Assembly (NCBI GenBank): GCA_037479115.1
Contig: JBBFLK010000019.1
Location: 1-61,254, forward strand
Source of the DNA: Anaerohalosphaeraceae bacterium
GTDB lineage: Bacteria; Planctomycetota; Phycisphaerae; Sedimentisphaerales; Anaerohalosphaeraceae
Length of the DNA: 61,254 nt
Direction: 5' to 3'
Below are positions 12,524 to 15,992 of the stretch, in pieces. The notes beneath the pieces are model-generated. The model did no database searches and had not been told where the DNA came from. It worked only from the letters and a program-made list of their open reading frames with translations. Position numbers and translations under genes: made by a program. How positions within the stretch are numbered: position 1 is the stretch's first letter; each line of letters opens with the position of its first letter.

Positions 12524-13627
12524 TTAAGACCGCTTTTTGTTTACCCAAGAATGCAGTTTTTGAAAAATTTTGAGATTGGCCGCCGGAAAAGCGTATTGAA
12601 TTAACCGGCTGGGCCAGACCCATTTGACGGCATCGCAGCCGAGCGGCTCGGCTTTTCCGCCTTGATACTCACACAAAAAGGCATGCAGCACAATCTTAAA
12701 GTGCGAATAAGCGTGCCGCACCACCGTCAGACAAGGCCCGACGGAAACCGCGATTGCCGTCTCCTCCCGAATCTCACGAGCCGCCGTCTGCTCGAGCGTC
12801 TCACCCGCTTCTCTCTTGCCGCCGGGAAACTCCCACAAGCCCCCCAAAAGCCCTTCGGCCTTTCGTTTGGCAATCAGGACCCGCCCCTTTCGAAAGACAA
12901 TCCCAACCGCAATCTCATATTCCGGCAGTTTGCCGCTTTTGGGCATTATAGGAAGAACGGCTTGAAGCCCCTTTTGTTTGGCCAGACAAAACATCTCCAG
13001 CGGACACATCCGGCAATCGGGCAGACCGGGTTTGCAGACAACGGCCCCCAGCTCCATCAGCGACTGATTGAAATCGCCCGGGCGCCGGGGACAAACCAGG
13101 GTTTCGGCCAGCTGCCAGAGTTTGTTTTTGACGGCGGTTTGGGTCGGTTCCTGGCGGATGCAAAACAGCCGACACAGAACGCGAATGACATTGCCGTCCA
13201 CCAGCGGCGCCGGCTGGTGAAAGGCGATGCTCGCCACGGCTCCGGCGGTATAACGTCCAACGCCGGGAAGCTTCTGCAGCTCGCTGGCCTTCTCCGGAAA
13301 CCGCCCGCCGTACTCCCGAACAATGATTTGAGCGGCTTTGTGCAGATGGCGGGCTCGGCTGTAGTAGCCCAGCCCCTCCCACAGCTTTAACACCGAATCC
13401 AGTTTGGCCTCCGCCAGCGACTCCACCGTCGGAAAATGCTGCAAAAAACGCTCATAATATGGAATGACGGTTTCAATGCGCGTCTGCTGGAGCATCATCT
13501 CCGCCAGCCAGACGGCGTAAGGGTCTTTCGTCCGCCGCCAGGGCAAATCGCGGTGCCCCTGATCCCACCAGCGCAGCAGGGCCTGTCGAATCTCTTCAGG
13601 TCTGGGGGTTTTTGAGTTCTTCGACAT
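12524..13627 (-). CDS. mutY: A/G-specific adenine glycosylase
   Basis: MutY removes adenine opposite 8-oxoguanine. The 367-residue protein has the helix-hairpin-helix LPGVGRYTAGA followed by the catalytic Asp in LVDGNV. An iron-sulfur loop C-x6-C-x2-C-x5-C (CKPGLPDCRMCPLEMFC) and a C-terminal Nudix-like domain (GGKREAGETLEQTAAREIREE) that reads 8-oxoG complete it. The ATG at 13627 lies inside a 48-bp sequence that duplicates the last codons of scpB; there is no Shine-Dalgarno, as expected if the start was once coupled to scpB translation. An upstream TTG (13657) is less likely. Confidence 0.94.
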   Translation of the reverse strand: MSKNSKTPRPEEIRQALLRWWDQGHRDLPWRRTKDPYAVWLAEMMLQQTRIETVIPYYERFLQHFPTVESLAEAKLDSVLKLWEGLGYYSRARHLHKAAQIIVREYGGRFPEKASELQKLPGVGRYTAGAVASIAFHQPAPLVDGNVIRVLCRLFCIRQEPTQTAVKNKLWQLAETLVCPRRPGDFNQSLMELGAVVCKPGLPDCRMCPLEMFCLAKQKGLQAVLPIMPKSGKLPEYEIAVGIVFRKGRVLIAKRKAEGLLGGLWEFPGGKREAGETLEQTAAREIREETAIAVSVGPCLTVVRHAYSHFKIVLHAFLCEYQGGKAEPLGCDAVKWVWPSRLIQYAFPAANLKIFQKLHSWVNKKRS

Positions 13628-13642
13628 TGGGCAGATATTTAA
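13595..13642. repeat. 48-bp direct repeat, left copy (start of mutY)
   Basis: Matches 15290-15337 at 45 of 48 positions. It covers the first 11 codons of mutY and 15 bases before its ATG. On the minus strand the same bases also read the end of ScpB (LPNVEELKNPQT then TGA) in another frame. Confidence 0.93.
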
Positions 13643-13673
13643 ATCAAGCAAGCTCAAAAAGAAAAGAGGGATG

Positions 13674-14420
13674 TTAAACAGGCAATCCGTTTAAGTTGTT
13701 TCCTTGAAGGACAACGAAGGGCTTTTCATCCCACGTACGCCCCTGCAGAAGGCGTCCTGCTTTTTTCTTGTTGAAACCGCCCCACTGTTTGAAAAAGAAA
13801 GGAACTCGTTCTTTCAAACAGTTTTCCTGTATCTGAAGAACCCACTCTTCTTTCATCGGACGTGCCCGCGGACCGGATTCCCCGCCGACAATCACCCAAT
13901 CAACCCCTTCCAGTGTTAAAGTATCTATCGGTCCAAGCAAGGGTTCCAGGGACAAGAATCTTACAGAAGCGTTGACACGCCGCAGATGGTCAAGACGGTA
14001 CAAATAATCAGATTTTTCAATCGTCACCCCAATCCACACATTCGGCGACCACTCCAGCAGCGGGGCCAACTCCGCCAGGCGATGCGAGCGTTTTGTTAAT
14101 ATCTGAAACGTATGCTGTGTACATCGGTTCATCACGGAAAAAATCCGCTGAATAAAAGAAAACGGCACCTCTTCATGAAACAAATCACTCATCGAATTCA
14201 CAAAGACCAACCGGGGCTTTTTCCACCCATAAGGTTCCTCCAGCGTTTCCGGATGCACCGTGACCTGAAAGCCGTTGCGATAACGGGGCTGCCCCATTGC
14301 ACACAGCCGCCTGGCCATCCGCTCCGCATAACAATGAGCACAGCCGGCGCTGATTTTCGTACAGCCGGTTACGGGATTCCAGGTACACTGCGTCCACTCA
14401 ATCGCCGTCTGCGTCGCCAT
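13674..14420 (-). CDS. DUF5131 / phage Gp37-Gp68 family three-Cys-motif protein
   Basis: A 248-residue protein opening with AIEWTQCTWNPVTGC, then Cys20-x6-Cys27-x2-Cys30 (GCTKISAGCAHCYAE), the three-Cys motif of the family. The Cys cluster and later motifs (FVNSMSDLFHE, IGVTIE, LEPLLGPI, VIVGGESG, FFKQWGG) recall a radical-SAM-like barrel, but the activity is not established. It is the known partner of TcmP. The ATG at 14420 shares one base with the tcmP stop (TAATG), so the two are translated together. The pair lies inside a DNA segment bounded by direct repeats. Confidence 0.88.
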   Translation of the reverse strand: MATQTAIEWTQCTWNPVTGCTKISAGCAHCYAERMARRLCAMGQPRYRNGFQVTVHPETLEEPYGWKKPRLVFVNSMSDLFHEEVPFSFIQRIFSVMNRCTQHTFQILTKRSHRLAELAPLLEWSPNVWIGVTIEKSDYLYRLDHLRRVNASVRFLSLEPLLGPIDTLTLEGVDWVIVGGESGPRARPMKEEWVLQIQENCLKERVPFFFKQWGGFNKKKAGRLLQGRTWDEKPFVVLQGNNLNGLPV

Positions 14421-15262
14421 TAAACACATCCTCGATTCGAATATTTTTTCATAATATCCTCTACAATCTTATGGCCGGTTTTGTTTGGGGACGCAAAAAA
14501 AAGATAATAGACAACAGCCCCATTTTCATTCCTCATTGGCATAGGCCTCGACACGTATCCAAATCCTGCAGATTCTTTCAATCGTTTTTGAAATGCAAGG
14601 GCAATCGCTTCGTTGGACGTTTTTTCTTCTATATCGCCGAAAAGCCCTTCCTGTTTTTTATAGGCCGCTTTTTTCCAACTTTCATCTCCCCAAAAAGATG
14701 TTAATCGGTCTGCTTGTTCCGGCGATACTTTGTCCGGATTTTCCCATAATACATTTCTATTCATATCCATTACAGGAAAGTTAAGAAAGATTTCAATGGC
14801 CTTGGACTGTCCGGCAGCCCGCATAACCTCCCAATTCAAGTGAAGCCCATAAGGGTCCAATAAGCACAGAGCACGCTTATAATCAGAATACTGAATGGTC
14901 GGAAAAATTTCCTTCAGCAGGATTTCATTGCAATCCCCCTCAAAAAAGAAAACATTCGAATAACCGGCAGCCAACCGCCTTAAATAGTCAATTTTCTCCT
15001 TATTAAGATCGATAAAATAATATCCTGTAAAAGGCGGTTTCGTATCAAGGGCAATCAAAGGGCTGCCCGGAATTTGTTTCTTTTTGGTTTTGGATATATG
15101 AACACCCGGCCCGGCAAATCCATCAATATAATAATATCCCTTTATTGACGCCTGTTTTGACATAATTGTCGTATAAGCACTGCCGTACTTCTGTAAAATC
15201 TCGAGCTTAATTTCAGACCAATACCCAACCTCATCAAATCTGAAGTCTCCTTCTTTTCTCAT
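14420..15262 (-). CDS. tcmP: Three-Cys-motif partner protein TcmP
   Basis: A 280-residue protein of the TcmP family, always found beside a three-Cys-motif protein. YIDGFAGPG (45-53) resembles the SAM-binding loop of a Rossmann methyltransferase and CLLDPYGL resembles its acidic strand-4 motif, so a methyltransferase-like fold is likely; the substrate is unknown. AAGGAGC is four to five bases before the ATG. Codon use is clearly more AT-rich than scpB and mutY on either side, which supports acquisition as a cassette. It is the first gene of a two-gene operon. Confidence 0.85.
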   Translation of the reverse strand: MRKEGDFRFDEVGYWSEIKLEILQKYGSAYTTIMSKQASIKGYYYIDGFAGPGVHISKTKKKQIPGSPLIALDTKPPFTGYYFIDLNKEKIDYLRRLAAGYSNVFFFEGDCNEILLKEIFPTIQYSDYKRALCLLDPYGLHLNWEVMRAAGQSKAIEIFLNFPVMDMNRNVLWENPDKVSPEQADRLTSFWGDESWKKAAYKKQEGLFGDIEEKTSNEAIALAFQKRLKESAGFGYVSRPMPMRNENGAVVYYLFFASPNKTGHKIVEDIMKKYSNRGCV

Positions 15263-15289
15263 TTTTGCTCCTTCTGAAGTTTTTTATGT

Positions 15290-15337
15290 TTCAGGTCTGG
15301 GGGTTTTTGAGCTCTTCGACATTGGGCAGGTCTTTAA
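15290..15337. repeat. 48-bp direct repeat, right copy (end of scpB)
   Basis: Encodes the last 14 or so codons and stop of scpB. Mate of 13595-13642; the two enclose 1,647 bp that hold only tcmP and the DUF5131 gene. Confidence 0.93.
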
Positions 15338-15992
15338 GGGAATTGAGCCCGAAGACTTCCAGGAACTTCTGCGTGGTGCCGTACTGCATCGGCCGGCCCA
15401 GAATCTCCGCCCGGCCGACAATCTTCACCAGCCCCTTATACATCAGATTGCGAATCACCTCGCCGCTGGCCACGCCGCGGATGGCCTCAATATCCGCCCG
15501 GATAATCGGCTGCTTATAGGCAATAATCGCCAGGGTCTCCAGGGCCGCCGGCGACAGTTTGTTGTCCGCCCGGACTTTCACCAACTTCGACAGCCACGGA
15601 TTAAAGACCGGCAGCGTCATCATCTGATACCCGCCGGCAATCTTTTCGATGCGGAACGAAAAACCGCCTTCGCGGTACTTGCGGTTCAAATCCCGAACGC
15701 ACTGGTGAATCTGCTTAAGGGTGCCCGCCTCGGCAATCTCCGCCAGCTTGGCGGGCTTGAGCGGTTCATCGCTGGCAAACAGCACCGCTTCAATGACGGT
15801 TTCGAACGTGGGGGTCAGCGCGGCTTCCTCCGCCGGCGATGCCTCCATATCCTCCTGAAAATCCTCCGATTGCGCCTGCGGCGGCTCACTGGACAGAGGC
15901 TCATCCTCCGACGGTCTCGAAAGGTCGGCAGACGGCTCCGGCTGGTCTATTTCATTCTCGATTTTATCCTGCTCGTTCAAATCTCTTTCCAT
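15291..15992 (-). CDS. scpB: Segregation and condensation protein B
   Basis: ScpB, the winged-helix kite subunit that works with SMC and ScpA in chromosome condensation. The 233-residue protein has an acidic, Glu/Pro/Ser-rich N-terminal tail (about 1-60) and two winged-helix units with the family motifs ALETLAIIAYKQPI and IEAIRGV, then GRPMQYGTT near the end. It overlaps the upstream nif3-like gene by 16 bases. Its final codons form one copy of a 48-bp direct repeat; before the insertion of tcmP-DUF5131 the gene probably overlapped mutY. scpA is not in the window. Confidence 0.93.
   Translation of the reverse strand: MERDLNEQDKIENEIDQPEPSADLSRPSEDEPLSSEPPQAQSEDFQEDMEASPAEEAALTPTFETVIEAVLFASDEPLKPAKLAEIAEAGTLKQIHQCVRDLNRKYREGGFSFRIEKIAGGYQMMTLPVFNPWLSKLVKVRADNKLSPAALETLAIIAYKQPIIRADIEAIRGVASGEVIRNLMYKGLVKIVGRAEILGRPMQYGTTQKFLEVFGLNSLKDLPNVEELKNPQT

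Follow-up and report, generated by a model that had tools for sequence, protein, structure and literature searches.

How do small candidate defence cassettes that carry no visible mobility gene enter housekeeping operons and leave them undamaged? To our knowledge this is an open question. We address it here with a cassette of two genes, tcmP and a DUF5131 gene, that lies between scpB and mutY in an Anaerohalosphaeraceae bacterium (GenBank assembly GCA_037479115.1; hereafter G000), a genome of 3.0 Mb in 52 contigs. The window, meaning the whole stretch of DNA analysed, is the 61,254-nucleotide contig JBBFLK010000019.1 (C19). The cassette stands between two copies of the 3′ end of scpB, congeners have the same junction without it, and copies of gene 3′ parts frame the same gene pair at four other places. 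Such a layout (a complete gene end, the cargo, a displaced gene end) is what a single crossover within a gene end would produce. A single genus presents one site in occupied, empty, repeat-less and probably scarred states, and the locus illustrates that two overlapping genes can be separated by an insertion and both stay intact, provided that the overlap is duplicated. A few unrelated bacteria likewise carry the pair between copies of gene ends, which makes the question open to experiment in laboratory strains.

Results

A two-gene cassette lies between two copies of the scpB end

On the minus strand of the window the genes run in the order scpB, tcmP, DUF5131, mutY (Table 1). An initial annotation of this DNA, made from the sequence alone, had proposed that tcmP and DUF5131 are enclosed by 48-bp direct repeats. 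The two copies are indeed identical at 45 of 48 positions, and their ungapped match scores 39, against a highest score of 11 in 40 shuffles. Coordinates likewise bear out its assignment of the right copy to the end of scpB and of the first 11 mutY codons to the left copy. The repeat begins 15 bp upstream of the stretch in which scpB and mutY formerly overlapped, so it represents the end of scpB, and the overlap is only part of it. The mutY start in G000 is the same as in the congeners G003 and G005.

Between the repeats, open reading frames (ORFs) and the Pfam and NCBIfam libraries revealed only tcmP and DUF5131; as the annotation had stated, neither a transposase nor an integrase was recognised there, and no inverted repeats were found at the cassette ends. 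The two genes overlap by 10 bp and occur as a cassette once in the G000 genome. The G+C content of the cassette is 44.8%, compared with 58.0% for scpB, 57.5% for mutY and 55.3% for the window. By eye, positions 13628-13673 of the window hold no clear ribosome-binding site for mutY after the insertion, and the scpB stop is no longer adjacent; translation of mutY may have changed after the insertion.

Table 1. Features at the occupied scpB-mutY junction of the window.
Feature	Position	Strand	Evidence and remarks
mutY (A/G-specific adenine glycosylase)	12524..13627	-	TIGR01084 E 4.2e-102; 5′ end rebuilt; ATG at 13625-13627, within left repeat
Left repeat copy (mutY-side copy of scpB 3′ end)	13595..13642	-	15 bp, then mutY ATG and codons 1-11
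DUF5131 gene (PADLOC PDC-M41B; radical-SAM-like three-Cys protein)	13674..14429	-	PF07505 E 2.5e-101; PDC-M41B E 2.9e-120
tcmP (PADLOC PDC-M41A; methyltransferase-like fold)	14420..15262	-	TIGR04474 E 7.7e-66; PDC-M41A E 4.7e-77
Right repeat copy	15290..15337	-	scpB 3′ end including stop, and one further base
scpB (SMC-Scp subunit; target gene)	15291..15992	-	PF04079 E 1.6e-53; TIGR00281

Congeners show the site empty, occupied without a repeat, and probably scarred

The genus sample consisted of six genomes (G000-G005). Two of them, G001 and G003, have no cassette; their scpB and mutY overlap by exactly 32 bp (ATG...TGA), and the repeat sequence is present once at the junction. This is the empty site that the initial annotation had predicted, and its presence in two congeners supports an insertion into overlapping genes that duplicated the overlap. 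G005 carries the cassette at the same junction as G000; its repeat is 47 bp long and has two differing positions. Since the copy remains exact over the 15 bp that precede its mutY ATG, the left boundary of the 47-bp repeat looks original. In G002 the cassette is present, DUF5131 is joined to mutY, and there is no repeat. G004 has no cassette; its genes are parted by a spacer of ~83 bp in which 22 positions of a 25-bp stretch agree with the end of DUF5131 in G000, a match equalled by none of 500 shuffles and none of ~1000 chunks of the window (against G005, 3 of 500 shuffles did as well). This spacer is probably the scar of a former cassette; cassette remnants were also sought in the other scpB-mutY spacers, and only that of G004 was convincing. 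With a probable scar in G004 and a repeat-less cassette in G002, the insertion history is not one clean recent event.

We found scpB in 33 of 39 family genomes and read 33 loci, the window and 32 relatives. Of these, 14 have mutY near scpB; some contigs end early. The two genes also seem to overlap in G007 and G008 of a second genus, given inferred TTG starts. Other sequence lies between them, with no overlap, in G006, G009, G012, G013 and G017. Such a separation by unrelated sequence is what the initial annotation had named as evidence against itself; it occurs in part, in these other genera, and the overlap is found in the congeners G001 and G003. A copy of the scpB end was sought in the spacers of G002, G004, G006, G009, G012, G013, G016 and G017, and none stood above shuffles. 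Some of these junctions hold ORFs of their own: one of membrane type and ~150 amino acids in G006, G016 and G017 (L044, L046 and L043), across two genera; one of 117 amino acids in G012; and one of 244 amino acids in G013 (L045) that appears HEPN-like by eye.

The insertion target is the 3′ end of scpB

A tcmP match was present in 6 of the 39 family genomes, five of them close (62-100% identity). All five close cassettes (G000, G002, G005, G016, G034) follow scpB directly and in the same orientation; the sixth tcmP (G027, ~30% identity) has neither scpB nor mutY beside it. What lies downstream takes three forms: mutY in G000, G002 and G005; an ORF and then mutY in G016; and, in G034, a convergent gene that we take, by eye, to be nadB-like. 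Each downstream gene is shared by cassette-free congeners (G001 and G003 for the mutY context, G017 for that of G016, G035 for that of G034). The target of the cassette is the 3′ end of scpB, which corrects the initial annotation in one respect: it had placed the insertion at the scpB/mutY overlap, and the G016 cassette sits between scpB and another ORF, that of G034 between scpB and the convergent gene. The cassette stands behind scpB even at sites where scpB overlaps no other gene, and for this reason the overlap itself was rejected as the target. At the order level, five further close cassettes (G116, G123, G107, G050, G134; 56-64%) have neither scpB nor mutY adjacent.

Copies of other gene ends frame the same pair

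A profile built from ten TcmP proteins gave 255 confirmed relatives in many phyla, the best 80 of which were examined; DUF5131 stands beside tcmP in 79 of these 80. At the 75 testable loci we searched for direct repeats between the 1 kb upstream and the 1.5 kb downstream of the cassette, calling a repeat strong at E < 1e-9. Strong repeats were found at five loci, G005 among them, and weak ones (E 1e-4 to 4e-3) at four more. Mismatched pairings gave no match at E < 0.01 (0/78), and windows from the same locus gave one at E < 1e-5 (1/116; 223 bp matching at 67%), plus six weaker ones. The excess in the strong class has a Fisher p of 0.026 against the former control and 0.035 against the latter. 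The excess of repeats around cassettes is modest, and it is the anatomy of the individual cases that carries the argument. A tblastx search for duplication at the protein level put the same five loci on top, followed by weak matches resembling the controls.

All five strong repeats derive from the 3′ parts of genes: scpB, gpsA, a restriction endonuclease gene, a PglX-like methyltransferase gene and a tRNA-Ala gene. At L134 (that is, G005) the scpB end provides the 47-bp repeat. At L152 the gpsA end provides 112 bp that finish at the stop, the upstream copy being inferred across two contigs. At L163 the repeat spans 126 bp at 86% and comes from the end of a restriction endonuclease gene of the BPTD_3080 type; its downstream copy is decaying. 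At L170 the repeated gene encodes a PglX-like methyltransferase; two partial copies of the 3′ part of this gene are also present, and tcmP-DUF5131 and a SIR2-like gene lie among the three; one partial copy reaches the gene end, and the other is a 54-bp stretch from ~150 bp inside the gene, followed by more shared non-gene sequence. This arrangement resembles tandem accretion. At L167 a stretch of 2.8 kb is framed by an intact tRNA-Ala and a partial copy of 60 bp. Repeats are 47-48 bp long at scpB and 54 to ~200 bp elsewhere, and those of scpB and gpsA finish at the stop codon or one to two bases past it. In four of the five cases tcmP and DUF5131 are the only ORFs of at least 50 amino acids in the framed interval, L167 having one extra. 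Further framed cases were sought at four viral loci and five loci from a phylum search, with no repeat above 35 bp; five more loci in that set come from genomes already among the 75, and of these L216 shows the same weak 35-bp match as L173. Across the examined loci the upstream gene is co-directional with the cassette in 55 of 73 and the downstream gene in 41 of 72.

Two of these loci carry additional genes. The 2.8-kb tRNA-Ala element (L167:4677-7601) holds, beside tcmP and DUF5131, a 264-amino-acid ORF with no Pfam or NCBIfam match, and at L170:1897-3939 the PglX-like 3′ part has copies on either side of the SIR2-like gene (PF13289); other cargo may insert in the same way.

Cassette and host trees

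The five family cassettes form one clade (support 100/98). An approximately unbiased (AU) test does not reject a clade of the genus cassettes (p 0.281), nor one with G034 replacing G002 (p 0.23); branching inside the family clade is not resolved, and the cassette phylogeny does not separate one arrival from several. For the hosts, rpoB gives ((((G000,G005),G003),G004),(G001,G002)), with all branches at 100/99 or more. The mutY tree instead pairs G003 with G000 at a weak 86/90, and the tree of the scpB end leaves the placement of G003 undecided. Over the last 500 bp of scpB G000 and G003 are 95-97% identical, over the first 600 bp of mutY ~95%, and either is 85-94% identical to G005.

Under the rpoB topology the cassette of G000 and G005 could have arrived after G003 split off, with no loss needed. 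If the probable scar in G004 stems from the same event, G003 would have to have lost the cassette, and its exact empty junction is what recombination between the repeats would leave. As the mutY and rpoB trees disagree, we regard such a precise loss in G003 as no more than possible.

Discussion

A proposed single crossover in a gene end, and its rivals

Our preferred reading, held tentatively and at close to an even chance, is that the cassette is an islet resembling a cis-mobilizable element (CIME), inserted by one crossover at a gene end through a site-specific recombinase that acted in trans or has since been lost. The tcmP-DUF5131 pair would carry, or would have arrived joined to, a copy of the target gene's end. 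A circle of the scpB end, tcmP and DUF5131 would recombine with the last 47-48 bp of scpB in one reciprocal crossover; scpB would gain a complete 3′ end from the incoming copy, and the displaced original end, on the far side, would keep the mutY start codon, so that neither of the overlapping genes is cut. Recombination between the two copies would excise the cassette and restore the overlap exactly, and G003 may be such a case.

Several observations weigh against this reading. Most cassettes (70/75) have no strong flanking repeat, and at E < 0.01 the excess is not clear (9/75 vs 6/116, p 0.077). Within the family the repeat belongs only to the event shared by G000 and G005; G002, G016 and G034 are without it. 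Since rpoB joins G000 and G005 (100/99), G003 may have lacked the cassette throughout. Within the framed intervals we recognised no recombinase, and an integrase profile matched 1 of 145 immediate cassette neighbours, a count that considers the 25 commonest neighbour families per library and may miss others. The scpB end, sought in viral contigs (as a degenerate pattern), plasmids and phages, had no match, and the recombinase specificity would have to differ from one target gene to the next. The G000 genome does contain four tyrosine-recombinase (PF00589) matches, all on contigs other than that of the window. Close TcmP relatives (46-57%) paired with DUF5131 occur on four viral contigs of IMG/VR (L236-L239), a possible route of spread; relatives on plasmids and phages are below 33% identity.

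The main rival, which we consider rather unlikely, dispenses with a mobility enzyme: a fragment from a relative carrying scpB and the cassette would have been taken up, ligated into a circle or joined illegitimately at one end, and integrated through a single RecA-dependent crossover in the shared scpB end. An enzyme in trans and recombination with a donor having the same junction are the two mechanisms that the initial annotation had put forward, and either may apply. Donors with scpB and the cassette exist in the family, whose close cassettes make up a single clade; a ComEC-type gene is present in G000; and the scpB and gpsA repeats finish at or just past the stop, where homology between donor and recipient would end. 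Circularisation of linear DNA followed by RecA-dependent single-crossover integration is reported for E. coli in the accessible part of one study (PMC3240628). This route accounts neither for the original joining of the pair to gene ends nor for the tRNA-Ala case, which has the look of an integrase target. A homology of 47 bp is also short for RecA. Vertical inheritance from a family ancestor, with many losses and the repeat as a later local duplication in G000 and G005, would fit the single clade, the AU results and the probable scar in G004. It is nevertheless unlikely: the overlap looks to predate the insertion, being present in G001 and G003 and seemingly also in G007 and G008 of another genus, and tcmP of G002 is no closer to that of G000 (64.6%) than tcmP is between genera (68.2% and 62.5%), unlike rpoB (89% for G002, 82-83% for G016 and G034, from partial sequences).

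The same anatomy would be expected had the genes first been parted by a small tandem duplication of the scpB end, with the cassette arriving between the two copies later and in some unrelated way. The junctions of G006, G009, G012, G013 and G017, which hold other ORFs or sequence and no repeats, show that this place is open to insertion. We nonetheless judge this order of events quite improbable, as no duplicated scpB end is present in six cassette-free spacers (G004 and the five just named) or, by eye, in G001, G003 and G008, and the duplication would have to recur at other gene ends. That the pair is itself the mobile unit, TcmP and DUF5131 also driving or guiding their own capture at gene 3′ ends, is something to which we give only a slim chance, although in four of the five framed cases nothing but this pair is enclosed, and both the targets and the host phyla are unrelated; if true, it would define a class of mobility that needs no classical recombinase or transposase and that, by duplicating the end of the target gene, spares even genes that overlap. 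Finally, a compact unit flanked by direct repeats could recall ordinary transposition with an unusually long target-site duplication and a transposase in trans. Target duplications of transposons are short and of nearly fixed length, whereas the repeats here are long and vary from target to target; together with the lack of inverted repeats and of a transposase, this led us to reject transposition as barely credible.

Relation to known systems

CIMEs are described, in the accessible part of one source, as elements flanked by attachment (att) sites that have lost their integration and transfer genes and can be mobilised by an autonomous element sharing the att site (PMC5704250). The cassette shares with these and other integrase-less att-flanked islets its direct repeats from the 3′ end of the target gene and a cargo with no recognised integration or transfer genes, an absence seen between the repeats, where a loss as such was not observed. 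The array-like accretion at L170 is a further likeness, and the two repeat copies, present once at empty junctions, are candidate att sites of the attL/attR kind. It differs in having only two genes in 1.6 kb, in the occurrence of the same pair at different target genes with most copies lacking repeats, and in that no related autonomous element was found. As in integrase islands at the 3′ ends of tRNA and housekeeping genes, the gene end is regenerated and the displaced copy lies on the far side, and L167 sits at a tRNA-Ala; unlike in those islands, no integrase gene was recognised in the cassette. Duplicated homology around foreign DNA is also the outcome of homology-facilitated illegitimate recombination and of single-crossover integration of a circularised fragment, here with a recurrent natural gene pair. 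The cassette falls outside the DDE transposons and insertion sequences, having neither a transposase gene nor terminal inverted repeats.

The two proteins and their candidate role in defence

By sequence the cassette belongs to PADLOC system PDC-M41, TcmP of TIGR04474 with its DUF5131 partner, and the mode of insertion is the new part. Among the matches listed in our literature search we saw nothing like this mode of insertion, no paper using the term PDC-M41 and none on DUF5131; the accessible portions of papers naming TcmP in full say nothing about insertion, as far as seen. The M41A and M41B profiles match adjacent genes (Table 1), and DUF5131 also matches PDC-M30B (E 4.2e-117). The pair is a candidate two-gene defence system, probably with an antiviral role, a label that comes from the profile library. 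The TcmP model (predicted local distance difference test score, pLDDT, 79.9) has a fold matching the rRNA methyltransferase RlmJ at a template-modelling (TM) score of 0.44-0.49. The DUF5131 model (pLDDT 73.8) has weak fold matches only, none below E 0.001, with radical-SAM enzymes among them, and its residues C23, C30 and C33 are invariant in 12 sequences.
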